From an uncultured Rhizobiaceae group bacterium (lineage in GTDB: Bacteria > Pseudomonadota > Alphaproteobacteria > Rhizobiales > Rhizobiaceae), in NCBI GenBank assembly GCA_938044775.1, contig CALIOE010000003.1:1-56033 (forward strand): a stretch of 56,033 nt of DNA, read 5' to 3'. The translations under genes and the position numbers were made by a program. Under the pieces are notes generated by a model, which searched no databases, was not told the DNA's origin, and saw only the letters and a list, made by a program, of their open reading frames with translations. This document shows positions 32,277-55,706 of this stretch, in pieces. Numbering within the stretch: position 1 is the stretch's first letter; each line of letters begins with the position of its first letter.

Positions 32277-32315
32277 CTAAGTGCCTTTCTTAAATTGAGC
32301 CTGGGAAACCGGCAC

Positions 32316-34087: not shown

Positions 34088-34163
34088 GGGCATAATTCTC
34101 CTGTTGAGTGGTTTGCCAGCGGATCGATACCCACCGGTGGTAATCTGTTGGGAAGGCCTTCGC

Positions 34164-35907: not shown

Positions 35908-35988
35908 GTATCAATGGCTAAGGATACAGATGCTGCCTGATCCGCAGCAAGTCCGCGTCTGCTGGTGACCAAGCATAGGGGGAGCAAA

Positions 35989-40647: not shown

Positions 40648-41601
40648 TTACTTAATCGCCTGAGGATTGATCGGTGAACCGCAGCCTCCGGGCAGATGCA
40701 GCGGTGGCGCGACGAAGAAAAACTCGTAAACACCATCCTCGGCGCAGTCTTCGGCCAGCTCTTTCACGTAGAATATTTCACCCATCGAAATTCCGATGGC
40801 AGGAATGACCACCCAGTGCCATGGCTGGTTGGCTTCGTCTGTTTCGTTCGGCCGCACTTCGCAGCCCCACGTGTCCGCACAGATCGCAGCAATGTCGCGT
40901 TCGCGAATCCAATGCGCGGTTTCAAATGCCAGCCCGGGCGCATCCCCGCCCGCATATCCGTCCCAGCTTCCAACGGCCAGGCAGCGTTCCTGATGGCCGG
41001 TTCGTACAATGACAAAATCGCCCTTGCGAATCTCAACACCCTGAGCCCTGGCGCAGCTGTCGAGGTCATCGTTGGTTATCGCGTAGCCATCGTCCAGTGA
41101 ATCGACGCCTTTGTGACGTGCGACGTCCAGCAGAACGCCCCGCCCCACCATTTTATCGCGCACATTTTCGATACCGAGCTTTGCAGCGCCCTGCACTGTC
41201 ACTTCGGTGGCGTCATAGCCGTTGTACATCTTGTCATCCAGGAATATGTGAGCCAGCGCATCCCACTGGGTGGACGCCTGGCAGGGCATGTTAATGCCAT
41301 CATCGGCGTAACGCAGATAAGCTTTGCCGTCGCCGTCCTGCTTGCCGATAGCCGCGTCTGTACCCGTCGCCAGCATTTGGTGCACAGGGTTCCAGCGTCC
41401 ACCGAAAAGACCGGACTGAATGGGTTCTTTCAATGACAGGCCCAACGCAAATACCTTGCCCTTTCGAACAAGGCCGGCGGCAGAGACGATATCAGCCGGC
41501 TCGATATTGTTCAGTGTTCCGATCTGGTCTTCCTTGCCCCATCGTCCCCAATTGGAGAGTTTCTTGGCCGTTTCGTAGATTTTTTCGCGGGTCAGTTTCA
41601 C
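40648..41601 (-). CDS. cyclase-family amidohydrolase
   Basis: The 317-residue protein belongs to the kynurenine formamidase/isatin hydrolase-like cyclase family. The metal-site region reads ASTQWDALAHIF (Asp114, His118) in place of the canonical HxGTHxDxPxH, a substitution seen in one branch of the family. The start is GTG 41601, with AGGAGG upstream. It diverges from the VOC gene and a 16-bp perfect palindrome sits between them. Isatin-type enzymes open N-heterocyclic or lactam rings, which would fit an N-heterocycle pathway. Confidence 0.8.
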   Translation of the reverse strand: MKLTREKIYETAKKLSNWGRWGKEDQIGTLNNIEPADIVSAAGLVRKGKVFALGLSLKEPIQSGLFGGRWNPVHQMLATGTDAAIGKQDGDGKAYLRYADDGINMPCQASTQWDALAHIFLDDKMYNGYDATEVTVQGAAKLGIENVRDKMVGRGVLLDVARHKGVDSLDDGYAITNDDLDSCARAQGVEIRKGDFVIVRTGHQERCLAVGSWDGYAGGDAPGLAFETAHWIRERDIAAICADTWGCEVRPNETDEANQPWHWVVIPAIGISMGEIFYVKELAEDCAEDGVYEFFFVAPPLHLPGGCGSPINPQAIK

Positions 41602-41671
41602 GGGACTTGCCTCCTCTCAACACCATTCAAACAACGGTCTTGCTTGTGTTCTTGATGTACAGCTTGCTAGT

Positions 41672-41689
41672 ATTTATCAATTGATAAAC
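41672..41689. promoter_or_regulatory. TetR-type operator candidate, site 1 (ATTTATCAATTGATAAAC)
   Basis: The core TTTATCAATTGATAAA (41673-41688) is a perfect 16-bp palindrome. It ends 14 bp before the VOC ATG and 71 bp from the cyclase start. TTGTGT (41644) and TAGTAT (41668) with an 18-bp spacer could be the promoter, the operator overlapping its -10 end. Close versions lie near 45.67 kb and 52.67 kb. Confidence 0.65.
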
Positions 41690-41703
41690 AGGAGCAAGCG
41701 CGC

Positions 41704-42198
41704 ATGAAAGCTCTCGGATTGAATCATCTTTCGGTGGCAGCGACTGATCTGGAAAAGTCCTTGTCGTTTTATGAAAGTGTGTTGGGCATGGAGAGGATAC
41801 CGACATACAATTTTGGCTTCACCACCCAATATCTGCGTTGCGGCGATTTACAGGTTCACGTGTTCCTGCTCGAAGATAAAATTCCCTTCTACCAGCACTT
41901 CGCTATCGATGTGGACGACTTCCTGGCGGTCTATGAGAAAGCCAAAGAATGGGATGCACTGGACGCGGCTGCTTTTCGCAATCCCGTAAACGAATTGCCT
42001 GACGGGTCCGTTCAGATGTATATGCGGGACCCCGCTGGCAATCTGATCGAAGTGGATTGGCCGGACATCACCACGCTGGATACATCCAGGATCCCGGAAC
42101 TGAAGAAGCTTTCCGAGTTTGCCGATCAGGAAGGCGATGCGTTGAAGGCGTCGCTTTACCTCGATCGTCCTCATCTGCAACCCAATCGTCAGTTCTAG
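41704..42198 (+). CDS. VOC family protein (glyoxalase/extradiol dioxygenase-like)
   Basis: The 164-residue single-domain protein shows VOC metal ligands His8 (LNHLSV), His65 (YQHFAID) and Glu116 (LIEVDW), and the LGMERIPTY and FLLEDKIPF strands. It could be a ring-cleaving dioxygenase or isomerase component. GGAG lies near the ATG. It is first in the VOC-monooxygenase-OsmC-TetR operon under the palindrome. Confidence 0.8.
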   Translation: MKALGLNHLSVAATDLEKSLSFYESVLGMERIPTYNFGFTTQYLRCGDLQVHVFLLEDKIPFYQHFAIDVDDFLAVYEKAKEWDALDAAAFRNPVNELPDGSVQMYMRDPAGNLIEVDWPDITTLDTSRIPELKKLSEFADQEGDALKASLYLDRPHLQPNRQF

Positions 42199-42213
42199 AT
42201 CGGAGTCGGGTCC

Positions 42214-43428
42214 ATGAAAGACAATGTCGTGACGTTCCAGGACGCGGAAGTGCCGACTCCACTTGAAGTCTATGTCGACCGCGCCAGAGAACTTGCGCCG
42301 GCGTTGAGGGAACGGGCCGCACAAACCGAGGAGCTGCGTCGCCTCCCCACGGAAACCGAACAGGACCTGCACGGTTCAGGACTGTTCCGGATGCTCCAAC
42401 CCAGGCGGGTCGGTGGCGCGGAACTTGATTATGTCGCCCTGATTGATGTCATAGAAGAGCTTGCGAAGGGCGACGCTTCCGTTGCCTGGAATGTCAGCAA
42501 TCTTGGAAGCCACCACTGGATGCTGGGCATGTTTCCAAAGCAGGCGCAAGATATTGTTTGGGGCAAAGATCCGGATGCTCTCATCGCATCGTCGTTTATC
42601 TTTCCCTGCGGCAAAGCGGAAAGAGTAGACGGCGGTTATCGACTGAACGGACGCTGGCCATTTTCATCGGGCGTGGATCCGTCCACCTGGAACATGCTTG
42701 CCGGCATGGTCGAAGCGGGAAGCGCTGATGCCGGTGGCGAGCAAAGGATCTTTCTCCTTCACAAAGAAGACTACGAGATCATCGACACATGGTTCACGAC
42801 GGGCCTCAAGGGAACCGGTTCAAAAGATGTGAGTGCGGACAGCGTTTTCGTTCCGGATCACATGACACTGGCTGTCAAAGACATTGCGGGAGGGCCGACG
42901 CCCGGTTCTATCGCAAACGAAGGCCCCCTCTTTCGCCTTCCGGTTTTTGCCTTGTTTCCATTCGTTCTTTCGGGTTGCGCGCTTGGAAATGCGCAGGGCT
43001 GTCTGGACGACTTCATTGAAAACACACGCAATCGGGCATCAAAATACAATCAGGCGAAATTGGCTGACTTTCAGTCAATCCAGATCAAGATTGCGCAAGC
43101 AGGCGCGAAGATTGACGCAGCGCGCCGGATTATGCGCTCCATCTGTATTGATGCGATGCTTGCTGCACGCGCCCATCAAGTTCCTAATCTTCTCGAAAAA
43201 ACCCGCCTGCGTCGCGATGGCGCCTACTCTGTGGGACTGTGCACCGAGGCGGTTGACCTGTTGTTTGCTGCCAGCGGTGCCAGTGGACTTTACACCAGGG
43301 GTCATTTGCAAAGGCAATTCCGCGAAGCCCATGCCATTGCCTCCCATATTGCCTTCAGCTTTGACGCTGCCGGTGCCAACCATGGAAGAGTCGAACTCGG
43401 CCTGACTTCCGACAATCCGACTCTCTAG
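42214..43428 (+). CDS. acyl-CoA dehydrogenase-like flavin monooxygenase (group D / HsaA-type)
   Basis: The 404-residue protein has the ACAD-type fold used by two-component aromatic hydroxylases: an N-terminal helical part (RELAPALRERAAQTEELRRLP), VAWNVSNLGSHHWML, a central beta-barrel (FPCGKAERVDGGYRLNGRWPF) and C-terminal four-helix bundle with ARAHQVP. A flavin reductase partner is not in the cluster. It follows the VOC gene by 15 bp and is followed by OsmC. Confidence 0.82.
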   Translation: MKDNVVTFQDAEVPTPLEVYVDRARELAPALRERAAQTEELRRLPTETEQDLHGSGLFRMLQPRRVGGAELDYVALIDVIEELAKGDASVAWNVSNLGSHHWMLGMFPKQAQDIVWGKDPDALIASSFIFPCGKAERVDGGYRLNGRWPFSSGVDPSTWNMLAGMVEAGSADAGGEQRIFLLHKEDYEIIDTWFTTGLKGTGSKDVSADSVFVPDHMTLAVKDIAGGPTPGSIANEGPLFRLPVFALFPFVLSGCALGNAQGCLDDFIENTRNRASKYNQAKLADFQSIQIKIAQAGAKIDAARRIMRSICIDAMLAARAHQVPNLLEKTRLRRDGAYSVGLCTEAVDLLFAASGASGLYTRGHLQRQFREAHAIASHIAFSFDAAGANHGRVELGLTSDNPTL

Positions 43429-43441
43429 AAAGCTTCAGACC

Positions 43442-43930
43442 ATGAGCGACGAAACCAAAACGTTCGATGTCATCTTTGAGGGCGTCGGCACCACCGGGCC
43501 GAACATGCGCAACGACATCTGCGTTGAATGGCCCATGATGAAAGAAAAGTTTGAACTGGCGACCGACGAAGGGCCATTTCACGGTGGTGACGGTACAGCG
43601 CCGCCGCCACTGGCACTCTTTACCGCCGCACTGACAGGATGCCTTATGACGCAAATCCGGGCCTTTGCCAAAAGGCTGAAGCTGGAAATAGATCATGTCG
43701 AGGTGAAGGCGCGGTTGCACTGGCAGGGCGAACAAGTCGGTATGGAACCCTATGTGACCGCGCCGGTCGGCTTCAGTCTCGATGTCGACATCAAGTCGGC
43801 AGCAACCGACAAAGAACTCAAACACCTGCTGCAGTGCGCCAAAAAGGGGTGCTTCATTGAGCAGACATTGGCCCAGGGACTGATTGTCGAACACCGGCTG
43901 AAAATCGATGGCAATTGGCACGATGCCTGA
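43442..43930 (+). CDS. OsmC family protein
   Basis: The 162-residue product has GTAPPPLALFTAALTGCLMT with Cys67 and a second cysteine pair, QCAKKGC (Cys132, Cys137), in the following helix. OsmC proteins are thiol-dependent peroxidases. It lies 13 bp after the monooxygenase and 19 bp before TetR, in the same operon. It is one of three OsmC proteins in the window; the presence in an oxidative pathway may reflect hydroperoxide by-products, or use of the fold as a hydrolase. Confidence 0.82.
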   Translation: MSDETKTFDVIFEGVGTTGPNMRNDICVEWPMMKEKFELATDEGPFHGGDGTAPPPLALFTAALTGCLMTQIRAFAKRLKLEIDHVEVKARLHWQGEQVGMEPYVTAPVGFSLDVDIKSAATDKELKHLLQCAKKGCFIEQTLAQGLIVEHRLKIDGNWHDA

Positions 43931-43949
43931 ACTTCCCGTATGAAAAGAC

Positions 43950-44600
43950 ATGGATCAACAAACCAAAAATACACCTCGCAAGAAGCGGCTTTCTTCGGAG
44001 GAACGCCGTAAGGAGTTCATCAGCAAGGCTATAGAATTTTTTGCCGAAGAAGGTTTTGAAAGCAGTACCCGTGAACTGGCGCGGTACCTTGGTGTAACCC
44101 AGCCGCTCCTCTACCGGTATTTCCCCAGCAAGGATGACCTCATAAAGGAGGTCTATCAGACGGTCTATCTCAGCCGGTGGCAAGAAGAATGGGACGTTCT
44201 TTTGTGCGACCGTTCAATCCCGCTAAGAGCGCGGCTTCAGGAGTTCTACGAGGCCTATACCGATGCGATCTTCACACGGGAGTGGATGAGGATATTTCTG
44301 TTTTCCGGATTGAAAGGCGTCGAAATCAACCGCTGGTATGTCGGTCTGGTGAACGAACGTATTCTCAATCGCATCTTAAATGAGTTCCGCGTTGAGGCCG
44401 GGCAGAAGAATCCCAAGCCGCCGTCGGCGCAGGAACTGGAGTTGGCCTGGGTCATGCACGGAGGGATTTTTTACTACGGGGTTCGCAAGCATATTTACGA
44501 AACGCCGGTCCTTGAAGACAAGTCGCGGATGATCTCCGATGCGCTCGATCTCTTCCTCAAAGGCATCGGTGATGCGTTTCCCACCGGCTTGAAAGAGTAA
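43950..44600 (+). CDS. TetR family transcriptional regulator
   Basis: The 216-residue protein has an N-terminal HTH (about 18-65; AIEFFAEEGFESSTRELARYLGVTQPLLYRYFPSKDDL) and a helical ligand domain. Being last in the VOC operon, it is probably autoregulated from the palindrome at 41.68 kb. It is the only regulator in the right-hand cluster and therefore the likely reader of the shared palindromes. The inducer is unknown, probably a substrate or intermediate of the pathway. Confidence 0.88.
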   Translation: MDQQTKNTPRKKRLSSEERRKEFISKAIEFFAEEGFESSTRELARYLGVTQPLLYRYFPSKDDLIKEVYQTVYLSRWQEEWDVLLCDRSIPLRARLQEFYEAYTDAIFTREWMRIFLFSGLKGVEINRWYVGLVNERILNRILNEFRVEAGQKNPKPPSAQELELAWVMHGGIFYYGVRKHIYETPVLEDKSRMISDALDLFLKGIGDAFPTGLKE

Positions 44601-44612
44601 GACCCGACCCGC

Positions 44613-45131
44613 TCAGTGACCACCGCGCGCAGGATATCGATTCTCAACCGCAAACGGAATTTTCGACTGCAGGAATTCAAGATCCGGGCGCGCCCAGGGC
44701 ATGTTCGAAACGTCCGCAAGATAAAGCCGACCATCCGGACGAACCCAGAACAGGCCTGGTTCGCAAAAGATGCCCGCCTCTCCTTCTTTTATGGCCCTGG
44801 ATATATAGAGACCCCAGGCACGGGCGTCGGTTTCTGACAGGCCGTAGCCGATCGTTAATCCGGAAAGCTTCCACTCATCCGCGGACTGTTCTGCCAGATC
44901 TTCAGAATTCATCGAAATGGCGATGGTTAAGAATCCGGCGTCTTCGTACGTGGACAGCAAAGCCTCAAGTTTCTGCAAATAGGCCTTGCAGACGGGGCAA
45001 TGAAGTCCGCGATAGAACACGATCATGGTGAAGTTTTCCGGATTCTGAGCCGAGAGATCCCATGCCTTCCCCCCAATCGTATTAACATTGAGGGCGGGAA
45101 CGGCAGCGTCTGGAGTAAGCATTGTGGACAT
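44613..45131 (-). CDS. peroxiredoxin (AhpC/TSA-like)
   Basis: The 172-residue product has the thioredoxin-fold redox motif YRGLHCPVCKAY (Cys45, Cys48), which differs from the classic peroxidatic FTFVCPTE pattern and matches peroxiredoxin-like proteins. SMNSEDLAEQSADEWKL follows. ATG 45131 has AGGAAC upstream; the longer upstream frame overlaps the OsmC gene and is not used. It is co-directional with OsmC, 37 bp downstream. Confidence 0.82.
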   Translation of the reverse strand: MSTMLTPDAAVPALNVNTIGGKAWDLSAQNPENFTMIVFYRGLHCPVCKAYLQKLEALLSTYEDAGFLTIAISMNSEDLAEQSADEWKLSGLTIGYGLSETDARAWGLYISRAIKEGEAGIFCEPGLFWVRPDGRLYLADVSNMPWARPDLEFLQSKIPFAVENRYPARGGH

Positions 45132-45168
45132 TTGTGGTTCCTGATTGGAAGGGGAACTGGGTCGATTA

Positions 45169-45633
45169 TCAGCCAGGCAGGACGTTCCAGTTTTCGGTGA
45201 TGGCTGCACCATTGCCGCGAATGACTTTGGCAATCGGACAGAATTTTGCGAGATCGGTCTTTATCTGCTGCAGTTGCTCCGGCGAAGCATCGGTCTTCAC
45301 GTCAATATCAAGAACAATGTCATCGAACGGACGATCCACCTCTTCCTGCAACGTTACTCCAAGCCGGTTGAACTTTGCCGACAGCTTGATGTCTTCCAAC
45401 TGAAAAGCGACACCCATTTTGTGGGCGATCTTGGTCGAAATGACATTGGTACAACCGATGAGCGAAGCCATAAGTGTTTCTGTCGGGGATAGCCCCTCAT
45501 TCGTTCCGCCGCGCTCCGCCGGTTCATCAATTGTGCTTTGAACGTCGCGCGCATTGATGACGCTTTTTGAATGCGATTCACTTTTTGCACTCATTCTCAT
45601 CGTGATCGTTGTCTTCTCTCTGATCGTCACCAT
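45169..45633 (-). CDS. OsmC family protein
   Basis: The 154-residue product has OsmC cysteines Cys61 (SLIGCTNVIS) and Cys132 (AKFCPIAKVI), with TNEGLSPTE upstream. This organisation fits the YhfA-like OsmC group. The first ATG (45633) is used, although ATG 45600 and 45594 are possible. It diverges from the molybdenum-hydroxylase genes and shares their palindrome. With the downstream peroxiredoxin it forms a small thiol-peroxidase operon. Confidence 0.82.
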   Translation of the reverse strand: MVTIREKTTITMRMSAKSESHSKSVINARDVQSTIDEPAERGGTNEGLSPTETLMASLIGCTNVISTKIAHKMGVAFQLEDIKLSAKFNRLGVTLQEEVDRPFDDIVLDIDVKTDASPEQLQQIKTDLAKFCPIAKVIRGNGAAITENWNVLPG

Positions 45634-45664
45634 GGCCTTAATATCTACTTCACTCTTGCCGCTA

Positions 45665-45682
45665 ATTTATAATTCGATAAAT
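45665..45682. promoter_or_regulatory. TetR-type operator candidate, site 2 (ATTTATAATTCGATAAAT)
   Basis: The arms ATTTAT and ATAAAT are exact inverted repeats with a 6-bp interior, 18 bp overall, matching site 1. It includes TATAAT (45668-45673), a perfect -10 hexamer for the plus strand. It lies 31 bp from the OsmC start and 72 bp from the hydroxylase GTG start. Confidence 0.6.
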
Positions 45683-45754
45683 AGTGGAAGTGGCAAAGCT
45701 GGGCAACTCGCAAAGCTGCCACTGACTGCAATTCGGGTAACAGGAAGGTGAAAC

Positions 45755-46606
45755 GTGAAGGTTGCTGATTTTCACTACGAGCGGCCCGATAGTTTAGCTA
45801 AGGCGCTGGTACTGCTTTCGCGGGATGACGCCGATGTGCAGGCACTGGCCGGTGGACAAAGCCTGATGCCGATGATGAATTTTCGTCTCGCCCAGCCCGA
45901 TACGCTGGTCGATCTTAACGCGCTTGAAGAGCTGCGCGGCATTCGCGAAGCGGCGAACCATATCGAGATCGGCGCGATGACCCGCTATGCCATGCTCGAA
46001 GCTTCCGATCTTGTGAGGAAACACATCCCACTGTTTTCCATAGCCCTGCCGCATATCGCTCATTCCGCGATCCGAAATCGCGGCACAATTGGTGGGAGCG
46101 CCGCGCTGGCCGACCCAGCTGCCGAAATGCCGGCTTTGTTGATTGCTTTGAATGCTACGATCACAGCAGTATCAACATCCGGGGAACGTAAGATCGCGGC
46201 AAAGGACTTTTTCTTGGGTCTTTACGAAACGGCACTCGATGAAGGTGAACTGATCAAATCCATCTCAGTGCCAAAGGCACTGATCGAGAACCGGTTCGGG
46301 TTTTATGAGTTGACCAGGCGACACGGAGACTATGCGATGGCCGGTGTCGCGATTGCTGCACAACACATGGCGCCTCTCACTGGTTTGCGCATTGTGTTCT
46401 TCGGCGTAAGTGACCGTCCGCTCGATGTCACTGCAATTGCAGAAACCCTTGAAGGGCAATCAGCTACGGACACAGACATCGTTGAAGCTGCATGCCGTGC
46501 CATTGGTAATCAGAGCCTCCATGGCGATCTCAACGCAGATGCCGCAACAAAAACCCATCTGGCGCAAGTGGTACTAAGGCGGGCGCTGCGGGGAATGAAC
46601 GCATGA
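45755..46606 (+). CDS. molybdenum hydroxylase, FAD-binding subunit (CoxM/XdhB-like)
   Basis: The 283-residue FAD subunit has the AGGQSLMPMMNFRLAQP motif (FAD pyrophosphate site) and a TIGGSAALADPAAEMPA motif in the second FAD segment. The start is GTG 45755 with AGGAAGG just upstream. It is first of the M-S-L operon, and electrons would flow from the Mo centre via 2Fe-2S clusters to this flavin. The stop overlaps the 2Fe-2S subunit start (ATGA). Confidence 0.88.
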   Translation: MKVADFHYERPDSLAKALVLLSRDDADVQALAGGQSLMPMMNFRLAQPDTLVDLNALEELRGIREAANHIEIGAMTRYAMLEASDLVRKHIPLFSIALPHIAHSAIRNRGTIGGSAALADPAAEMPALLIALNATITAVSTSGERKIAAKDFFLGLYETALDEGELIKSISVPKALIENRFGFYELTRRHGDYAMAGVAIAAQHMAPLTGLRIVFFGVSDRPLDVTAIAETLEGQSATDTDIVEAACRAIGNQSLHGDLNADAATKTHLAQVVLRRALRGMNA

Positions 46607-47079
46607 CCCAAACCTGCACCATCACCATGACGGTGAACGGCGAAATTGTTTCACAGCAAGTTCCAACACGAATGAATCTTGTCGATTTCCTACGCAACGA
46701 AGTCGGCCTTACGGGCTCGCATGTCGGATGCGAGCATGGCGTCTGTGGGGCCTGCACGATCGAAGTCGATGGCGTCGCGGTTCGCGGCTGCCTCCTGCTT
46801 GCAGTCCAGGCAGATCAAGCCTCTGTGACCACGATCGAAGGCCTTGCAAACAATCCGACCGGCCGAGCACTGCAAAACGCGTTTCAGAAGCACAACGCCT
46901 TGCAATGCGGGTTTTGTACACCGGGAATGCTGGCCAGCGCGGTGGAATATGTCGAAGGTGGCGGATCCCCCGAGCGAACGGCCATCCGCGAACACATCTC
47001 CGGAAATTACTGTCGCTGTACTGGCTACCAGTCGATTGTCGACGCCATTGCCGACGTGTTGGAGAATGCATCCTCATGA
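46603..47079 (+). CDS. molybdenum hydroxylase, 2Fe-2S subunit (CoxS/XdhC-like)
   Basis: The 158-residue product has two 2Fe-2S binding sites: the plant-type CEHGVCGAC set (Cys43, Cys48, Cys51, Cys63) and the helical set CGFC and YCRC (Cys102, Cys105, Cys137, Cys139). Its stop overlaps the large-subunit ATG. The length is normal for the family. Confidence 0.92.
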   Translation: MTQTCTITMTVNGEIVSQQVPTRMNLVDFLRNEVGLTGSHVGCEHGVCGACTIEVDGVAVRGCLLLAVQADQASVTTIEGLANNPTGRALQNAFQKHNALQCGFCTPGMLASAVEYVEGGGSPERTAIREHISGNYCRCTGYQSIVDAIADVLENASS

Positions 47080-49454
47080 CCGGCCCGATCAACCCGTTTG
47101 ACAAGCCCAATTCCTATATTGGGCGATCTGTGGAACGAGCAGATGCCAAACGCCTGACGCAAGGCCGCGGACAATATGTCGACGACCTGCAACTACCGCG
47201 CATGGTTCATGCTGCCTTTGTTCGCTCACCTTTTGCACATGCTGAAATCCTGTCCATCGACAAGCAGGTCGCGGAAAAAGCACCTGGCGTGGTAGCAGTT
47301 TTTGCCGGTGCTGATCTCACTGATCACGTCACACCCTATGTTGGAATTCTCACCCATCTGCAGGGCCTGCGGTCGCCGCCTCAAATGCCACTGGCCATCG
47401 ACAGGGCAAGATGGCAAGGCGAACCTGTCGCAATGGTCGTTGCACAGTCGAGAGCACTTGCCGAAGATGCCTGCGATCTGATCGAAATCGACTACAAGCC
47501 AATCGACGCGGCCTGCGATGTGGAAAGCGCTCTCGCGCCAGACGCTGTTGTTATTCATGACGAATATCAAAACAATCTTGCCTGGGAACGTGTCGTGGAC
47601 GCTGGTGACGTGGATGGCGCATTTGCCCGGGCTGACGTAACTGTCGTGGAACGCACCTTCACATTTGCCCGCCATACCGGCGTCACACTCGAAACCCGTG
47701 CATCTGTTGTCGAGTTTAATCCGTCGGACGAAACCCTGATTTGGCATTATTCGGGACAGGCACCACACATGATGCAGGCCATCGTCGCGAAGCATCTTGG
47801 CATGCAGGAGGAGAACGTTCGCATTATAGCGCGGGATGTCGGTGGTTCGTTCGGCATTAAGATCCACACCTATGGCGACGAATTCGCCACGGCTGCTGCA
47901 GCAAAAATTCTTGGCCGCCCCGTTAAGTTTGTAGCGGACCGAAATGAGAGTTTCTCAACCGATATTCACGCCCGTGATCATCGTGTGACTGGACGGATTG
48001 GGGTGGATAAGGATGGCAGTATTGTCGGATTGGAGATCGACGATCTGACAGGAATCGGTCCCTACAGCATGTATCCACGCAGTTCGGGCATTGAGTGCAA
48101 TCAGATTTTGAATCTGACTGGCGCACCTTATGCAATCGACAACTACCGGGCCAGGGGCACCATCGTCTTTCAGAACAAAAACATGATGTGCCAGTATCGT
48201 GCAGTTGGCCATCCGGTCGCGATGGCCGTGGCCGATGGATTGCTGGAAGGTGCGGCCCACGAAATTGGTATGGATGTGGTCGATATCAGGCGCAAGAATT
48301 TGTTGCGTGATGATGTCTATCCGACAAGCTCCGCAGCGGGCATGAAATTTGATGACCTTTCTCACCAGAAGGCTTTGGAAAAGCTTGTTGAATTGATGGA
48401 CTACAATGGCCTGCGCCGGGACCAGAAAGAGGCCCGCGAGAACGGCATCTATCGTGGCATCGGTTTTGTCTCCATGGTGGAGGTCACCAATCCAAGTCCA
48501 ATGTTCTACGGCGTCGGTGGTGCGTCGATCTCGGCGCAGGACGGTGCCAGCGTCAGACTCGATGCGACTGGTGCGTTGCACGTTTCGGTATCAATCACCG
48601 AACAGGGCCAGGGCACGAATACGATCATCGCCCAGATTGCTGCAGGAATTTTCGGCGTCGATCTGGACCGCGTGAAGGTCACGACCGGCGATACCGCGAC
48701 GACACCTTATGGCGGCGGCACCTGGGCGTCGCGCGGTGCAGGAATCGGTGGCGAGGCAGTGTTGCTTGCTTCCAATGCACTGAAGGAACAGGTTCTCGAT
48801 GTCGCCGCCGTCATCTTGCAGGCATCCCCGGAGACCCTTGATATCAAGGACGGAGCGATTGTCGATCTGGCCGATGAAAACGAACGCATGCCACTCAGCG
48901 ACCTCGGCAAGATTGTCTATTATCGTGGCAATGAGTTGCCTTCAGACCTGGCACCAGAACTCATCGCTACCCGGCATTATCGGGTCACGGATTTTCCCTT
49001 TGTGTTCACCAACGGTGCGATGGCAGCGCACGTGGAAGTGGATATCGAGACCGGCTTTGTAAAAGTACTCGATTTCTGGGCGGTGGAGGATTGTGGCCGC
49101 GTGATCAACCCCAAGCTGGTCGATGAACAAATTCGCGGCGGCGTTGTTCAGGGCATTGGTGGAGCGCTATACGAAGAGTGCTTATATTCGGATGATGGAC
49201 AATTGCTGAATGCATCAATGGCCGATTATCTCGTGCCAATGGCGGCCGAGATGCCGGATATCCAGGTCGCACATATCGAAACCCCAACGAAGACGTCGGT
49301 GTTGGGAGCCAAGGGCGCGGGAGAGGCTGGAACCGGAGGTGCGCCGGCAGCAGTGATGAATGCGGTCAATGATGCGCTGCGGCCGATGCAGGCCTCTATT
49401 TATCAGATGCCAATGACACCACAGCGGGTATTGAAAGCTTTGGGCACCGTTTAG
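47076..49454 (+). CDS. molybdenum hydroxylase, large molybdopterin subunit
   Basis: The 792-residue protein has the CoxL/XdhA-type fold: YIGRSVERADAKRLTQGRGQYVDD at the start, GGSFGIKIHTYGDE, the Mo-proximal loop QYRAVGHPVA, and the active-site KGAGEAGTGG motif with its catalytic Glu near the C-terminus. The YRAVGHP loop matches neither the CO-dehydrogenase form I (YRCSFR) nor form II (YRGAGR) loop, so a CO dehydrogenase is unlikely. The true start is ATG 47076; an overlapping frame begins in coxS but is not the protein start. The substrate would be an aromatic N-heterocycle or aldehyde. Confidence 0.88.
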   Translation: MTGPINPFDKPNSYIGRSVERADAKRLTQGRGQYVDDLQLPRMVHAAFVRSPFAHAEILSIDKQVAEKAPGVVAVFAGADLTDHVTPYVGILTHLQGLRSPPQMPLAIDRARWQGEPVAMVVAQSRALAEDACDLIEIDYKPIDAACDVESALAPDAVVIHDEYQNNLAWERVVDAGDVDGAFARADVTVVERTFTFARHTGVTLETRASVVEFNPSDETLIWHYSGQAPHMMQAIVAKHLGMQEENVRIIARDVGGSFGIKIHTYGDEFATAAAAKILGRPVKFVADRNESFSTDIHARDHRVTGRIGVDKDGSIVGLEIDDLTGIGPYSMYPRSSGIECNQILNLTGAPYAIDNYRARGTIVFQNKNMMCQYRAVGHPVAMAVADGLLEGAAHEIGMDVVDIRRKNLLRDDVYPTSSAAGMKFDDLSHQKALEKLVELMDYNGLRRDQKEARENGIYRGIGFVSMVEVTNPSPMFYGVGGASISAQDGASVRLDATGALHVSVSITEQGQGTNTIIAQIAAGIFGVDLDRVKVTTGDTATTPYGGGTWASRGAGIGGEAVLLASNALKEQVLDVAAVILQASPETLDIKDGAIVDLADENERMPLSDLGKIVYYRGNELPSDLAPELIATRHYRVTDFPFVFTNGAMAAHVEVDIETGFVKVLDFWAVEDCGRVINPKLVDEQIRGGVVQGIGGALYEECLYSDDGQLLNASMADYLVPMAAEMPDIQVAHIETPTKTSVLGAKGAGEAGTGGAPAAVMNAVNDALRPMQASIYQMPMTPQRVLKALGTV

Positions 49455-50329
49455 ACACCCGCCATCTGCCCCCGGTACCAATCACCGATTTCACTCGCAG
49501 TCATCCACGCCACGCCCTCGTGCCCCCCTACGTAGTCGAGCAGTTCTTCAAGATACCTGATTCGATGCGGCACGCCGGTAATGTAAGGATGTATCGAAAT
49601 CGCCATCACGCGGGCATTGTCCGAGCTTTCCTGGTACAGGCGGTCGAACTGATCAACGCCGCGTTTCAGTAATTCGTCGGAACGATGCTGCTGCAAAGCG
49701 TAGACAGCAATATCGTTGGTTTCCACAGTGTAGGGGATGGTGGTGATCTGCCCGAACGGCGTGTCGATATCCTGTGGGAGATCGTCGATCACCCAGTCCG
49801 CCACAAACTCAATGCCGTGTTCGCGCAGCAGATCGAGCGTTTCGTCCGTTTCCGTCAGGCCCGGACATTCCCAAGACCGTGGCGCCGTGCCCCGGAATTC
49901 ACAGATCGTCTCAACTGTTCTGGCAATCGCGCTGCGCTGGTCATCCAGTTTGTGTGTTGGTCCCTGGACCAATCCATGTCCCATAAACTCCCAGCCAGAT
50001 TCCTTCGCCGCCGATGCGACGCGCGGATAGGAGTTGCAGACATTGCCGTTTATCGCCAGCGTTGTGGGAATGGCCCGGTCCGTCAGTGCTTTATGCTGAC
50101 GCCAAAACCCGGACCGCATTCCATATTCGTGCCAGGACCAGTTTGGCACATCCGGCAGCAAAGGTTGTCCCATTGGCGGCGGCAGAACCGTGCGCGGCAT
50201 GGGGCGCTCAATCTGCCATTCTTCCACGTTGAGGATGACCCAGACTGCGATGCGATTGCCGTCCGGCAGAACCAGCTTTGGACGATCAACGATTGCCTGA
50301 TAGGGAATGCGATCCGTGAGGCGTGTCAT
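49451..50329 (-). CDS. PuuE-like polysaccharide-deacetylase-fold amidohydrolase
   Basis: The 292-residue protein has the NodB-type beta/alpha fold with IPTTLAINGNVCNSYP, WEFMGHGLVQG and RSWECPGLTE and a late SIHPYITG. This is the allantoinase PuuE subfamily rather than chitin-type deacetylases, which lack the N-terminal extension. It would hydrolyse a cyclic amide or ureide. It overlaps the LLM gene by 4 bp and converges with the hydroxylase large subunit. Confidence 0.82.
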   Translation of the reverse strand: MTRLTDRIPYQAIVDRPKLVLPDGNRIAVWVILNVEEWQIERPMPRTVLPPPMGQPLLPDVPNWSWHEYGMRSGFWRQHKALTDRAIPTTLAINGNVCNSYPRVASAAKESGWEFMGHGLVQGPTHKLDDQRSAIARTVETICEFRGTAPRSWECPGLTETDETLDLLREHGIEFVADWVIDDLPQDIDTPFGQITTIPYTVETNDIAVYALQQHRSDELLKRGVDQFDRLYQESSDNARVMAISIHPYITGVPHRIRYLEELLDYVGGHEGVAWMTASEIGDWYRGQMAGV

Positions 50330-51429
50330 TGGGCGGCGACGGATGAACCGATAGCGCCATTGACGATTGGCATGGTTTTTTCAGCCAGCAAGGTCATCGA
50401 CTTCTTGCCGAGTTCGACGTCGACCCAATCCTTGCCTGCATAAAGCAATGTTCCGAAATCACCGACTTCTTCACGGAAGGCCAGAATGTCGTCAGCTACT
50501 TTCTCGGGAGTGCCCCAGAGTACGCAGCGCTCCAGCACGTAATCGACGGTGAGGTCGTCGTCTGGCATCTCCTGATCTTCCTTGAACAGATTAGAGCGAC
50601 CGTGCTTCTTCATTTTTGTCAGCAACTGGCTGAAATAGTAGCGATAGGGGCTGTCCGGTCCCAGCGCATATTCCTCCGCTCTCTTCAGGTCATCTGCGAC
50701 AAAAATTGAACGTGCAACACGCCAATTTGCTGGATCAGCAGGCCGCCCCACCCGCTCACAGCCTTCCACATATTTGGGCCAATGGGACGCTACCCATTTC
50801 GACAAAAGGAAGTTTGCTGAAATCGGCTCCCATCCCCTTGCAGCGGCTTCTGTTACGCCTTTCGAGAACGGCGCGACAACAGTCACGATAATCGGTGGAT
50901 GCGGTTGCTGGAGGGGTTTGGGCATGATGCCCTGACCAATTTCCGGCATCTGGTTTCTTTCGGTCGAAACGTTCCAGAATTCCCCCTCTATATTGTAGGG
51001 CGCATCGCCCTCCCAGATTTTCAGCACCGTGTTGATGCACTCCTGGAACATCAGATTTCGGTCTTTGTCTATGTTGCCAAATGCCTCGGCGTCGGTTGCC
51101 AGGCCTCCCGGAGAAATACCGAAGTTCAAGCGCCCGTCCAGCATGTGATCGAGCATTGCGATCTGACTGGCCACCGCCGCAGGATGCATGTTCGGCATAT
51201 TCACGGTGCCCGTGCCGAGCCTGATGTTCTTTGTCTCGTTTGCAATCCAAGCCAAAAAGGCGATGCAGGATGTGATGTTCTCAGCCTTGTCGGTGACGTG
51301 CTCGCCCACATAGGCCTCTGTAAACCCGAGCTTGTCGGCCAGCACGAATGCTTCCTTGTCTTCCCTGAGACAAGTCCGCCAGTCCTTTTCCAGCGGGTGA
51401 ATGGGCATCGTAAAAAATCCAAGATCCAT
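50326..51429 (-). CDS. LLM-class flavin-dependent monooxygenase
   Basis: The 367-residue luciferase-like monooxygenase (LimB/alkanesulfonate-type branch) starts MDLGFFTMPIHPL and contains FTEAYVGEHVTD, RLGTGTVNMPNMHPAAVASQIAMLDH, and GRLNFGISPGG, which line the FMN site. It needs reduced FMN from a separate reductase. Its place between the binding protein and PuuE-like gene suggests ring or C-N oxygenation. Confidence 0.88.
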   Translation of the reverse strand: MDLGFFTMPIHPLEKDWRTCLREDKEAFVLADKLGFTEAYVGEHVTDKAENITSCIAFLAWIANETKNIRLGTGTVNMPNMHPAAVASQIAMLDHMLDGRLNFGISPGGLATDAEAFGNIDKDRNLMFQECINTVLKIWEGDAPYNIEGEFWNVSTERNQMPEIGQGIMPKPLQQPHPPIIVTVVAPFSKGVTEAAARGWEPISANFLLSKWVASHWPKYVEGCERVGRPADPANWRVARSIFVADDLKRAEEYALGPDSPYRYYFSQLLTKMKKHGRSNLFKEDQEMPDDDLTVDYVLERCVLWGTPEKVADDILAFREEVGDFGTLLYAGKDWVDVELGKKSMTLLAEKTMPIVNGAIGSSVAAQ

Positions 51430-51521
51430 GCTGGGTTCCTTTGCCGTTCAGATCGGCTTGCCGGGTTGAAGAAAAGGGCGGCACATGGCCGCCCCGTACG
51501 ACTGACTGTGTGCGTTAGCGG

Positions 51522-52604
51522 TCAGTCGATCTTATAAGTTGTCGGCCATTTGTAGCCGGAGGCATCGACTGCAGCGAGGTAGTTCTTCATCACCTCGGTT
51601 CCCGGCATGCCCCGACCATCGGCTTCTTTTGCCTGCTTGTTGGGGAAAGCCGCCAGGGACTTTGCCCACCCGGCGCGAGCCTCCTCCGGTAACACTTTCA
51701 GCTTGGCACCAACCTTCTTCAGGCCCTCAAGACCTGCCTTCTGGCGGCCGTTGAGCGAAATACCGGCCTGCTTCTCATAGCCACGCCCGACCTCCACCAG
51801 AATTTTCTGAACCTCAGGCGGCATCTTCTCGAACGACTTCAGGTTCATCGTCAGACCATTCACACCCATCGCACCGAAGCCGATCTGGGTGTAATGTGGT
51901 GACGGTTCATAGAACTTGAAACCGAGATAGGCGGAAGGAAACATCAGCCAGCCGGAATAGACACCAGTCTGCAACGACAGATATCCGTCCGGCAATGTGG
52001 ACTGGACCGGTACGGCACCGGCAAATTCAAGCCAGGGCAAATTCGGACCGGCACCGCCAACCTTCACACCCTTCAAATCCTCAACTGTATCCCAGGGTTC
52101 AGTGGTTCCCAGATGGTAGTTGTCCCATCCGTGCAAGCCGAGCAGCTTCTGCTTGTATTCCTTTTCGAATACCTCAGTCAGCCAGGGAGTTTTGTCGTAG
52201 ACTGCACGCACAGCTTCCATTTCCTGTACTGAGTCTTGCGGGCCGAATGGCGCGTAATATGGAAAATTATGCAGGAACAGCTTTGCCGGCTCGAAGCAGA
52301 AACAATAGGCACCAACATCGAGAATACCATTCTGAACGGCCTCCAGTGTTTCTGCGACACCCGCAATCGCCCCGCCATAACCCTCTACAACCTCAATTTT
52401 GTGATCGGTTTCGGCCTCAACGCGTCTCTTTAGTTCAGGTACAAAATAGTTAGCCAGGTCGGCGACATAGACAGCCGGACCGTTTGGGTGTCCGGCACCA
52501 ACGCGTAACGTGAATGTTTCTGCATTGGCTGCGGCAACCCATCCCAGGGTCGACGATGCAAGCAGCGTTGCTGCCAGGCTTTTTGTAAATTTAGATGTTC
52601 TCAT
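51522..52604 (-). CDS. TRAP transporter substrate-binding protein (DctP family)
   Basis: The 360-residue exported protein has a signal peptide (MRTSKFTKSLAATLLASSTL, cleavage near ANA-ET) and a DctP-type fold: RVGAGHPNGPAVYVADLANYF, AYCFCFEPAKLF and LKGVKVGGAGPNLPWLEFAG. ATG 52604 has GGGAGGA upstream. It starts the minus-strand operon with LLM and PuuE-like genes, and faces dctQ-dctM. An organic-acid-like or ring-acid substrate is likely, but not identifiable. Confidence 0.9.
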   Translation of the reverse strand: MRTSKFTKSLAATLLASSTLGWVAAANAETFTLRVGAGHPNGPAVYVADLANYFVPELKRRVEAETDHKIEVVEGYGGAIAGVAETLEAVQNGILDVGAYCFCFEPAKLFLHNFPYYAPFGPQDSVQEMEAVRAVYDKTPWLTEVFEKEYKQKLLGLHGWDNYHLGTTEPWDTVEDLKGVKVGGAGPNLPWLEFAGAVPVQSTLPDGYLSLQTGVYSGWLMFPSAYLGFKFYEPSPHYTQIGFGAMGVNGLTMNLKSFEKMPPEVQKILVEVGRGYEKQAGISLNGRQKAGLEGLKKVGAKLKVLPEEARAGWAKSLAAFPNKQAKEADGRGMPGTEVMKNYLAAVDASGYKWPTTYKID

Positions 52605-52670
52605 GAAATCCTCCCAATTTCGGGCGCGATGGTCGCGCAACCTTCCTTTAGTGATCAGGCGTCCAACCTT

Positions 52671-52688
52671 ATTTATCGATCGCTAAAT
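52671..52688. promoter_or_regulatory. TetR-type operator candidate, site 3 (ATTTATCGATCGCTAAAT)
   Basis: This near-perfect 18-bp palindrome has arms ATTTA and TAAAT with CGATCG at the centre and only one mismatched pair. It lies 66 bp upstream of the TRAP binding-protein start and matches sites 1 and 2 in length and arms. Confidence 0.6.
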
Positions 52689-52761
52689 TGCGCGTATTCC
52701 CTCACAAACATGAAGTGGGGTCAAGAGGTTTGCATTGAAGGCACCGCCTTACACCGTTCTA

Positions 52762-52779
52762 ATTTATCGACTGCTAATT
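52762..52779. promoter_or_regulatory. TetR-type operator candidate, site 4 (ATTTATCGACTGCTAATT)
   Basis: It agrees with site 3 at 15 of 18 positions but its right arm is less symmetric. It lies 82 bp upstream of dctQ, so the divergent TRAP genes may each have their own copy. Confidence 0.45.
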
Positions 52780-52861: not shown

Positions 52862-53368
52862 ATGAATGCTCCGGTTCGCCTTGCCCGTGCGATTCATCTT
52901 GTGTCGGCTCTATGGACACTCGGCCTCGCCATTCTCATTTTTCTGGACGTTGCAGGCAGGGGGATATTGAGCTCGCCAATTCCGGGCACCAAGGAGATTA
53001 TTCAAAATTCGGTGGTGGCCATCACTTTTTTGCAATTGCCGCTCGCGATCTATACCGGGTCGATGTTGCGGACGACTATTTTTGCCGATGCAGTGCCGTT
53101 TCAGGTGCGCCGGTTGTTGCGCACACTTTGCTCTATACTGGGCATTCTGCTGTTTGTCGGGCTGGTGCTCAGCACTTATGAACCAGCTTACGATGCCTGG
53201 CGTATTGGCGAGTATGAGGGTGAGGGCGCTTTACGCGTTCCGACCTGGCCGGTGCGCGGGCTGGTGCTGGTGATGTCCGTTTTCGGGGCCTTCGCCTATT
53301 TGGCGATGATTTACTATGACTGGACCGGGAAACTCGTCCACGAAGTCGAAGCGCCGGCATCCCAATGA
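52862..53368 (+). CDS. TRAP transporter small permease (DctQ family)
   Basis: The 168-residue membrane protein has four hydrophobic segments (about 11-27, 44-60, 87-101 and 130-150) and the DctQ pattern ILSSPIPGTKEIIQNSVVAITFLQLP. ATG 52862 has no strong ribosome site of its own; two tiny overlapping reading frames (52834 and 52842) lie just upstream after an AAGGGGAA site and the second overlaps this ATG. It works with DctM, 30 bp further. Confidence 0.85.
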   Translation: MNAPVRLARAIHLVSALWTLGLAILIFLDVAGRGILSSPIPGTKEIIQNSVVAITFLQLPLAIYTGSMLRTTIFADAVPFQVRRLLRTLCSILGILLFVGLVLSTYEPAYDAWRIGEYEGEGALRVPTWPVRGLVLVMSVFGAFAYLAMIYYDWTGKLVHEVEAPASQ

Positions 53369-53398
53369 AACATCCATCCACAGAAACAGGTGCCTGCA

Positions 53399-54718
53399 AT
53401 GGGCGGTGACATTGCACTCTGGATGCTGGCACTGCTGATCGGCATGATCTTGCTTGGCGTGCATATCGGTGTCGCCTTCGCCATATGCAGCGCCCTTGGC
53501 GTATTCCTGATGCTGGGTAGCATGGAAGCCGCGCTGGCGATTCTTGGAAACACTGCATTCGAGGCGGTGCGAAAGGATGTTTTCGCCGTCATTCCACTCT
53601 TCGTCTTAATGGGCGATTTCATATCGCGGTCCGGTGCAGCTGCCGACCTGTACCGTATCTGCGACCGCGCGCTTCGGCGCCTGCCCGGACGCCTGGCCAT
53701 CGCGACAATTGCGGGGAACACAGTGTTTGCTGCGGTGACCGGTGTGTCCATCGCCGCCGCCGCGGCCTTCTCCCGAATTGCCTATCCGGAGATGCGTAAA
53801 GTTGGCTACAAACAGACCTTTGCGCTCGGAGCGGTTGCCGGCTCTGCCTGTCTTGGCATGCTCATTCCGCCGTCCGTATTGCTTATCGTCTGGGCCATTC
53901 TGACCGAAATGAGCGTGGGTGCATTGTTTATTGCAGGCATATTGCCGGGTGTTGTTCTGGCTCTGCTGTTCTCCGCATACGTGGTGATATCGGCCATCCG
54001 TAATCCGGAAATTGCACCGGCATTTGACGACAGTCTGCTCGAGATGACTCAAGAGGAAACCCGGTCTGAGGTGATCGGAGGACTTGGCATACTATTCCTT
54101 ATCCTGCTTGTCATCGGCGGCATCTGGACCGGACTGTTTACCCCGACTGAGGCGGCAGGGTTTGGTGCGATCGGTGCACTTCTTATCGGCGTCGTGAAAG
54201 GCATGCGTGGCAAGGAAATCCTTGCGGCCATTTTTCAGGCTGGCAAAACGACAGCGCCGATCATGTTTCTCCTGATTACGGCGCAGATGTATTCCCGGCT
54301 GCTCGCGATGGGCGGTGCCGTCAACTACATAAAAGGTCTGTTTCTAACTCTCGGCGTTGACCCGTTTTTGATCATCGGTGTGATGGTTGTGATCTGGATC
54401 CTGCTCGGCATGTTGATCGATTCGGTGTCCATCATTCTGTTGACCGTACCAATATTCGCACCGATCGCTGCGGTGCTGGGCATCGATCCCCTCGCCTTTG
54501 CGATCTTCGGAATTCTCGTAATCGAAGCAGGCCTTTTGACCCCACCCTTTGGTTTGCTGGTCTACACCGTGAAAGGCTCGGTGCCCGACCCAACAGCAAC
54601 CTTATCGAAGATCTTTTCAGGATCGTTCCCCTATTTCCTGCTCATCCTTGTTGCAGCATTCATTGTGCTGTTTGTTCCCGCCCTGGCAAACTGGCTGCCG
54701 GCCATCATGTTGCGCTGA
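53399..54718 (+). CDS. TRAP transporter large permease (DctM family)
   Basis: The 439-residue membrane protein shows about twelve hydrophobic segments and DctM motifs: GVHIGVAFAICSALGV, AVAGSACLGMLIPPSVLLIVWA, a TPTEAAGFGAIGALL loop and a late LTPPFGLLVYTVKG. ATG 53399 with AGGTG 6 bp upstream is preferred over GTG 53390. Together with DctQ and the DctP gene across the divergent region it forms a sodium-driven importer. It overlaps the Gfo/Idh gene tail to tail by 14 bp. Confidence 0.9.
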   Translation: MGGDIALWMLALLIGMILLGVHIGVAFAICSALGVFLMLGSMEAALAILGNTAFEAVRKDVFAVIPLFVLMGDFISRSGAAADLYRICDRALRRLPGRLAIATIAGNTVFAAVTGVSIAAAAAFSRIAYPEMRKVGYKQTFALGAVAGSACLGMLIPPSVLLIVWAILTEMSVGALFIAGILPGVVLALLFSAYVVISAIRNPEIAPAFDDSLLEMTQEETRSEVIGGLGILFLILLVIGGIWTGLFTPTEAAGFGAIGALLIGVVKGMRGKEILAAIFQAGKTTAPIMFLLITAQMYSRLLAMGGAVNYIKGLFLTLGVDPFLIIGVMVVIWILLGMLIDSVSIILLTVPIFAPIAAVLGIDPLAFAIFGILVIEAGLLTPPFGLLVYTVKGSVPDPTATLSKIFSGSFPYFLLILVAAFIVLFVPALANWLPAIMLR

Positions 54719-55706
54719 GCCGCACGGTCTCACAGCAGCCGGCAGACTTTATGATGCCTTCGAAGATTTCAATGTTGTGGATCAATTGCTCATCCGTCCA
54801 TGGATAGGGCACGGAACCATTAATTGCTGCGGCAAAGGACTCCAGATTAGCGGTCACGGCATCCGACCAATCGATGGATTCTGTTACCGGCAGCGCGCCG
54901 GACGTGCCGACGATCACATGAGTCTTGCCGCCTGGCGTATCCGGATGAGTGTCGTTGCGAACCTCAACCCATTTCTTCGATCCAAAAACATGGAAACGCA
55001 TGAAATGGGGGGTCGCAAGGATCGCCTGCAATGAAGCTGTCATACCTTGCTCGAAGCCCAGTTGCGCAACAACCATGTCACCGGTCGACCATCCCAGCAG
55101 CCGGTCCCTTGTCAGGGCTTGAATGGTCTCGACACGCCCAAACATCCACAACAACAAATCGGTGAGATGGATGCCCATGCCGGTCATTCCGGCACCAGGA
55201 GAATCGGCTTTGGACGTACGCCAGGACCCGTCCGGGATATCGATCAGTTTGTCGTGGCTGAACGCCGCTTCAACATGCATGATCGTGCCTAACTCACGCG
55301 CATCAATCATCGATTTCAGTTTGATCATCGCAGGCTCAAACCGGCGTTCGTGGCCAATACCGAGTACCACATTCGCATCCCGGCAAGCTGCCACAGAACG
55401 ACCCGCGCCGGCGGCAGTCATCCCAAGTGGTTTTTCGCAAAACACGTGCTTGCCCGCCGCAGCGCAGGCCAGCACCTGCTCTTCATGATACATGTGAGGC
55501 GTGGTCAGAATGATCGCATCAACATCGTCCTGTAAGATGGCTGCGTTAAATTCGGTGGCCACTGGCAAACCAAGCGATGCAATCTCGTGATGTAATCCAG
55601 CCTCTGGTTCGATCACCAACACAACTGTCAGCTTCGTGTTTTCTGACAAGCGGGCGATGATATGCCGCCCCCACCAACCAAATCCGGCGACTGCAACGCT
55701 AAGCAA
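54705..55706 (-). CDS. Gfo/Idh/MocA-family oxidoreductase
   Basis: The 333-residue protein has an N-terminal Rossmann fold (VAVAGFGWWGRHIIARLS), HVFCEKPLGMTAAGA, the EKP signature, and a C-terminal alpha/beta domain (GMGIHLTDLLLWMFG). The start is TTG 55706, supported by a GGGAGG site 5 bp upstream. It converges with dctM. The substrate is a sugar, inositol or related polyol, or another cyclic compound; not identifiable here. Confidence 0.85.
   Translation of the reverse strand: MLSVAVAGFGWWGRHIIARLSENTKLTVVLVIEPEAGLHHEIASLGLPVATEFNAAILQDDVDAIILTTPHMYHEEQVLACAAAGKHVFCEKPLGMTAAGAGRSVAACRDANVVLGIGHERRFEPAMIKLKSMIDARELGTIMHVEAAFSHDKLIDIPDGSWRTSKADSPGAGMTGMGIHLTDLLLWMFGRVETIQALTRDRLLGWSTGDMVVAQLGFEQGMTASLQAILATPHFMRFHVFGSKKWVEVRNDTHPDTPGGKTHVIVGTSGALPVTESIDWSDAVTANLESFAAAINGSVPYPWTDEQLIHNIEIFEGIIKSAGCCETVRLSAT

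Follow-up and report, generated by a model that had tools for sequence, protein, structure and literature searches.

TetR-type proteins mostly repress, and release from DNA by a ligand is their usual mode of action. Among described regulators, those closest to the system considered here are TetR of tetracycline resistance, AcuR of acrylate utilisation and RutR of pyrimidine utilisation; in addition, TmaR is an AraC-type master regulator of methylated-amine catabolism, as described in PMC13390433. Here we analysed a stretch of 56,033 nucleotides from an uncultured Rhizobiaceae group bacterium (GenBank assembly GCA_938044775.1, contig CALIOE010000003.1, positions 1 to 56,033; hereafter the window), which carries a gene cluster with a TRAP transporter, a molybdenum (Mo) hydroxylase, the gene of a TetR-type regulator (43950-44600) and four related palindromes (Table 1). 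Judged from sequence, it is highly likely that the four palindromes are the operators of this TetR, and that its dimer blocks six transcription units until a compound of the pathway releases it.

A search of the window with the pattern ATTTATCNATNGATAAAT at up to 3 mismatches returned exactly four matches, the very palindromes (three and a weaker fourth) that an earlier note on this DNA had reported; shuffled windows had a mean of 0.15 matches, and none of 100 shuffles had four. The description of the sites as near-identical holds for the first three and fits the fourth, with its 3 mismatches, less well. Gene order agrees with their reported placement in three divergent gaps, namely cyclase(-)/VOC(+), OsmC(-)/Mo-hydroxylase medium subunit(+) and DctP(-)/DctQM(+), the last with two sites. 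Across the genome (4.18 Mb in 168 contigs, 92.4% complete), the pattern at this tolerance occurs in 10 places, 4 of them in the cluster; rather than many equally good sites in unrelated places, which the earlier note had named as a sign against a regulon, there are only six other places as loose (2, 2, 3, 3, 3 and 3 mismatches). The reversed pattern, used as a control, has no match in the whole genome. One of the matches elsewhere (C29:15168, 2 mismatches) lies inside a mandelate racemase/enolase-superfamily gene, and another (C27:57069, 2 mismatches) is 82 bp upstream of a PreT-like gene in what we named by eye a pyrimidine-degradation operon; the four at 3 mismatches were listed with their open reading frames (ORFs) only.

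The sites are conserved together with orthologues of the regulator. A scan of named genomes yielded 61 loci with TetR relatives, 59 of which were used; L074 and L075, in which a short stretch of TetR matched without cluster genes, were dropped. A matrix built from the four sites of the window alone finds sites at the homologous promoters of relatives. At a score of at least 16, a site is present in 56 of the 58 loci with a TetR of 60% identity or more (115 sites; L120, the same contig as L019, was left out of this group); when the matrix columns were permuted symmetrically, 60 times, the mean was 1.97 loci and the maximum 6. The two loci missed were L029 (best score 14.9) and L073 (contig end). 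At a score of 20, sites were found in 21 of the 58 loci versus a permuted mean of 0.25 (maximum 6). Operator 1 has counterparts at the homologous gap of the Rhizobiaceae relatives L015-L020, where two sites are present versus one in the window, and for operator 2, sites occupy the matching gap in relatives from both Rhizobiaceae and Rhodobacteraceae. Most of the cluster recurs in the Rhizobiaceae relatives and much of it in Rhodobacteraceae; the core found in Bradyrhizobium comprises the flavin monooxygenase, TetR, the polysaccharide-deacetylase-fold (PDA-type) protein, the luciferase-like monooxygenase (LLM) and the Mo hydroxylase. Of 199 genomes of the family, 22 encode a TetR homologue at E 1e-20, and the pattern occurs at up to 1 mismatch in 21. 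In G195 and G112, no more than 100 bp separate a site from the TetR gene, and two sites lie on the TetR contig of G102, one of them directly before the VOC gene. The fragmented assembly G066 has four sites, all on contigs other than that of TetR: two in the DctQ/DctP gap, one in the Mo-hydroxylase/OsmC gap and one with no recognised cluster gene beside it.

Conversely, the site is missing where the regulator is missing. With the luciferase-like protein as query, a close match was found in 23 of 397 genomes of the order, our own included, and all 22 others were retrieved. The promoter test was restricted to loci of the Bradyrhizobium type, in which the LLM and Mo-hydroxylase genes are divergent and close, and a site was taken as a score of at least 14.5 in their shared gap; loci with TetR were drawn from both the TetR and the luciferase-like searches. 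All 39 loci with TetR carry a site in this gap (38 of 38 when L038 and L184, whose TetR DNA is identical and whose contigs are equally long, are counted once, as in all distinct counts), versus none of the four loci without TetR (L181, L185, L216 and L217); the contrast has a Fisher probability of 8e-6 with kinship ignored. L024/L025 and L061/L062/L063 share TetR protein sequences and were counted as separate rows. TetR scoring initially covered the best 7 first-look candidates per genome, and all candidates were scored in the decisive genomes. In the genomes of the four TetR-less loci, with all candidates scored, TetR matches at E 1e-5 are absent from G307, G365 and G387; in G409 there are just three remote ones (28-33% identity) and no orthologue. 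In L181 and L185, the two TetR-less loci that were aligned, the promoter hexamers TTGACC and TCTAAT are kept. The operator of L185 has decayed to AATAATCACCCGACAACA in place of the AATAATCACTCGATAAAC of TetR carriers, with a flavin reductase alone in the TetR slot; that of L181 is unrecognisable in the alignment, and in L216 and L217 the best remnants take yet other forms. This pattern is what relaxed selection on a predicted operator would leave. We also observed a GntR-type gene directly before the luciferase-like gene at 8955-9551 of L182, from a TetR-less genome of the Bradyrhizobium type (G529), as if the regulator had been exchanged.

The operator type also changes with the recognition helix of the regulator. 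We compared helices and operators for 101 TetRs (100 distinct), scoring the TTATC class to 10 kb on either side of the TetR gene and the other two classes in the 300 bp upstream only. QP helices are accompanied by TTATC-type sites (TTATCnnnnGATAA) in 76 of 81 cases (75 of 80 distinct; 2 have GATC-type sites and 3 none), QS helices by GATC-type sites (GATCnnnnGATC) in 10 of 11 (1 none) and HS helices by TGACCAnnTGGTCA in 4 of 6. Outside these four, the HS-helix locus L227 has the TGACCAnnTGGTCA site within a longer palindrome, with one change, and no operator of the three types accompanies the one QR, one QA and one HA protein. On a quick tree of 63 of the 101 TetRs, with Bradyrhizobium thinned, the operator type changes 3 times, so these are clade-level shifts and not 100 independent events. 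We lean towards the view that the window's TetR represents a branch of an undescribed subfamily that recurs with Mo-hydroxylase clusters, often with TRAP genes, and that changes in the recognition helix have altered its DNA specificity two or more times (half-sites TTATC, GATC and TGACCA). The more distant TetRs of the subfamily (L127-L141, L224-L235) lie in many, not all, cases beside other Mo-hydroxylase and TRAP genes, and those among them with QS or HS helices have palindromes of other types. The earlier note had assigned the palindromes to the TetR by position alone; conservation with orthologues, loss or decay without TetR and operator change with the recognition helix now support that assignment, and the palindromes are very probably binding sites of the cluster's own TetR-type protein.

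How binding would act on transcription can be judged from the promoters. Scanning the three gaps for consensus promoters gave a single weak match, which operator 2 overlaps in the OsmC direction; the other promoter positions were read by eye from alignments. In the Bradyrhizobium promoter and in the DctQ direction, a distance of 4 bp separates the end of the operator from the -35-like hexamer that follows it (TTGACC or TTGAGC); in the DctP direction, the operator comes after TTGACC-17-GGGAAT and ahead of the gene. This placement, together with the survival of promoter hexamers in loci without TetR, fits repression by blocking of RNA polymerase that a ligand relieves. The TetR dimer would sit on ATTTATC-NNNN-GATAAAT at the three divergent promoter regions and shut off TRAP uptake, the Mo hydroxylase and two further oxygenase-type flavoproteins, along with hydrolase-like and redox proteins and the TetR gene; a pathway substrate or intermediate would free the DNA of it. 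A position 4 bp before a -35-like hexamer is one that activators also use, and TetR might activate from its sites or repress some units and activate others; we regard this as improbable, because the DctP-side operator lies between promoter-like hexamers and gene, operator 1 lies 14 bp before a start codon, promoter hexamers persist in the aligned TetR-less loci and most TetR proteins repress. Least credible of all is that the palindromes form RNA hairpins, as terminators or attenuators, and are not protein sites. Operator 1 does lie in a longer dyad (arms 41662-41680 and 41681-41699, 84% complementary), and an alignment shows a long inverted repeat centred on the Mo-hydroxylase site of L016 (10644-10730); however, a repeat search found no such long adjacent dyad at operators 2-4, the three gaps have no terminator-like match, and in Bradyrhizobium the sites precede the -35-like hexamer and are not part of the RNA made from that promoter. 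TetR is best viewed as, most likely, a self-regulated local repressor that is released by a pathway compound. We infer direct binding, repression over activation, joint induction and the existence of an inducer from the sequence comparisons as a whole, and the placement of the sites suggests joint control of all six units.

Several observations weigh against the assignment of the sites to this TetR. The unrelated pyrimidine operon has a good site match at C27:57069, and, within the family, a site at up to 1 mismatch and a TetR homologue coincide in only 6 genomes, out of 21 with the former and 22 with the latter. In L173 (G366), the TRAP gap carries two good sites, with no TetR match at E 1e-5 in the assembly; the contig of this locus ends inside the cluster. 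L171 (G566), for which no TetR was listed, has one match of score 17.3 more than 7 kb from recognised genes. Where TetR is 40-60% identical, sites are found in 13 of 20 loci, and the permuted matrices averaged 0.97 loci but reached as many as 12, which makes these loci the weaker evidence. The agreement of helix and operator rests on about three events, on a tree with 21 weak inner branches out of 60 and with several long end branches, and L135 and L222 combine a QP helix with GATC-type sites, so that QP alone does not set the type strictly. Given that TetR-type regulators are abundant in the family and that genomes lacking this TetR have a similar sequence at pyrimidine operons, another protein could bind the palindromes, with TetR as a bystander. 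This we consider very unlikely: site and TetR are lost together, the operator type tracks this TetR's own recognition helix, and the genome has no close TetR paralogue, the next matches being at E 0.001 or weaker. The pyrimidine site raises a different possibility, namely that the same TetR also represses the C27 operon and couples both pathways, since C27:57069 (L076 9070-9087) at 2 mismatches scores 22.9 versus 24.2 for operator 4, and no TetR gene was seen among the ORFs listed around this operon. We find such a wider regulon unlikely, as a similar palindrome with an ATTTACC half stands before the PreT-like gene in L107, L118 and L119 (genomes G184, G135 and G039), which lack such a TetR: at E 1e-5, G184 and G135 have no TetR match and G039 has one remote match (34% identity, E 1.3e-6). 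The G039 operon has its own RutR-like TetR (232.8 bits, cut-off 368), and the pyrimidine-operon site more likely belongs mainly to another, RutR-like TetR than serves as a seventh target. On balance, the cluster's own TetR as the protein that reads the four palindromes accounts best for the data.

The four sites probably serve six transcription units, with boundaries placed from short or overlapping gaps, in the order cyclase(-); VOC-flavin monooxygenase-OsmC-TetR(+); OsmC-redoxin(-); Mo hydroxylase FAD-FeS-large(+); DctP-LLM-PDA(-); DctQ-DctM(+) (Table 1). With its gene at the end of the unit that operator 1 precedes, TetR would control itself. The claim that TetR is the only regulator of the region stands for the span of the palindromes, in which no other was found; the window as a whole also has a GntR/FCD gene at 35965 and an AraC-type gene at 28482.

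Table 1. Predicted operators and genes of the cluster in the window.
Feature	Unit or gap	Coordinates	Strand	Remarks
Operator 1	cyclase/VOC divergent gap	41672..41689		ATTTATCAATTGATAAAC, 1 mismatch; 14 bp before VOC start codon
Operator 2	OsmC/Mo-hydroxylase divergent gap	45665..45682		ATTTATAATTCGATAAAT, 2 mismatches
Operator 3	TRAP gap, DctP side	52671..52688		ATTTATCGATCGCTAAAT, 1 mismatch
Operator 4 (weaker)	TRAP gap, DctQ side	52762..52779		ATTTATCGACTGCTAATT, 3 mismatches; 4 bp before conserved TTGAGC
Cyclase-family protein	unit 1	40648..41601	-	PF04199
VOC/glyoxalase-fold protein	unit 2	41704..42198	+	PF00903
Acyl-CoA-dehydrogenase-fold flavin monooxygenase	unit 2	42214..43428	+	HsaA-like, under curated cut-off
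OsmC-like protein	unit 2	43442..43930	+	PF02566; NF041052 above cut-off
TetR-type regulator	unit 2 (last gene)	43950..44600	+	PF00440, E 8.5e-14; recognition helix QPLLYRYF
AhpC/TSA-redoxin-type protein	unit 3	44613..45233	-	PF00578; upstream start uncertain
Second OsmC-like protein	unit 3	45169..45633	-	PF02566
Mo-hydroxylase FAD subunit	unit 4	45755..46606	+	PF00941
Mo-hydroxylase 2Fe-2S subunit	unit 4	46603..47079	+	PF01799, PF00111
Mo-hydroxylase large subunit	unit 4	47064..49454	+	PF20256, PF02738, PF01315; no curated equivalog cut-off reached
Polysaccharide-deacetylase-fold, PuuE-like hydrolase (PDA)	unit 5	49451..50329	-	PF01522; TIGR03212 below cut-off; PuuE 3cl6
Luciferase-like monooxygenase (LLM)	unit 5	50326..51429	-	PF00296; closest solved relative 4uwm
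TRAP solute-binding protein DctP	unit 5	51522..52640	-	PF03480; NF037995 above cut-off
TRAP small permease DctQ	unit 6	52862..53368	+	PF04290
TRAP large permease DctM	unit 6	53390..54718	+	PF06808; TIGR00786 above cut-off

Uptake combined with a Mo hydroxylase, a pair of oxygenase-type flavoproteins and hydrolase-like and redox proteins suggests that the cluster breaks down a ring compound. In the curated-model scan that covered the enzymes, only TRAP subfamily models reached their cut-offs and no enzyme did; none of the curated models pointed to a substrate. The enzyme families did not name a substrate through their nearest solved structures either: the luciferase-like protein is nearest to 3,6-diketocamphane 1,6-monooxygenase, the PDA-type protein to the allantoinase PuuE and the cyclase-family protein to an uncharacterised structure. 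Two leads were set aside. Homarine (N-methylpicolinate) or trigonelline had been prompted by the adjoining methylated-amine cluster and was not relied on, as the flanks of L016 and L059, inspected by eye, have no such neighbour; the publications consulted on this lead do not describe the genes of the cluster. For cyclic imide hydrolase as the function of the PDA-type protein, the paper search made for it found none. The earlier note's proposal of heterocycles as inducers is a guess. The methylated-amine cluster spans 10716-35639 of the window and has the AraC-type gene mentioned above; its trimethylamine N-oxide demethylase (10716) and trimethylamine monooxygenase (15944) score above the cut-offs of their models, and it also contains sarcosine-oxidase-type subunits (22444, 25752) and glutamate-synthase-like and glutamine-synthetase-like genes (30903-35639). 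A GFO/IDH/MocA oxidoreductase is encoded at 54705-55706, and such a gene also lies near the cluster in L059, L121, L125 and L126; the site scan found no operator before the window's copy.

The cluster or its core occurs in Rhizobiaceae, Bradyrhizobium and Rhodobacteraceae. A defined operator with its repressor would be a simple reporter that could identify the inducer. If the subfamily is as we propose, it would form a natural series of regulator-operator co-evolution, with matched pairs of recognition helix and operator for the study of specificity change in TetR proteins, and induction tests could reveal substrates.

Our literature searches, at the level of titles and the opening of abstracts, found no account of this regulon, which on the basis of those searches and of curated models is an uncharacterised TetR regulon. 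The window TetR has the N-terminal TetR_N helix-turn-helix (PF00440, 51.5 bits, cut-off 24) and, if the predicted operators are correct, shows the family trait of palindromic operators at its own and neighbouring promoters. With TetR of tetracycline resistance it shares this helix-turn-helix and palindromic sites near its own gene; its Q-P-x-L-Y-type helix and the TATC half-sites are, we assume, as in the tetO system. It differs in its unrelated targets and in the even-spaced core ATC-N4-GAT, and scores 29.5 bits with the model of that TetR (cut-off 265). AcuR is the best-scoring curated model (36 bits) and likewise has a catabolic role, but the window TetR is far under the NF051457 cut-off of 247 and acrylate genes were not seen in the window. 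RutR shares the TetR fold, and a RutR-like gene stands in a pyrimidine operon with a similar site; the TGACCAnnTGGTCA sites of the HS-helix relatives presumably resemble those of RutR, whereas the window protein reaches 23.8 bits against the TIGR03613 cut-off of 368. TmaR, as described in PMC13390433, is similar in that one regulator governs several promoters of one catabolic cluster, and a methylated-amine cluster adjoins in the window. In contrast to the repressor proposed here, TmaR is an AraC-type activator of other genes, and the palindrome, at up to 3 mismatches, is absent from the methylated-amine part of the window.

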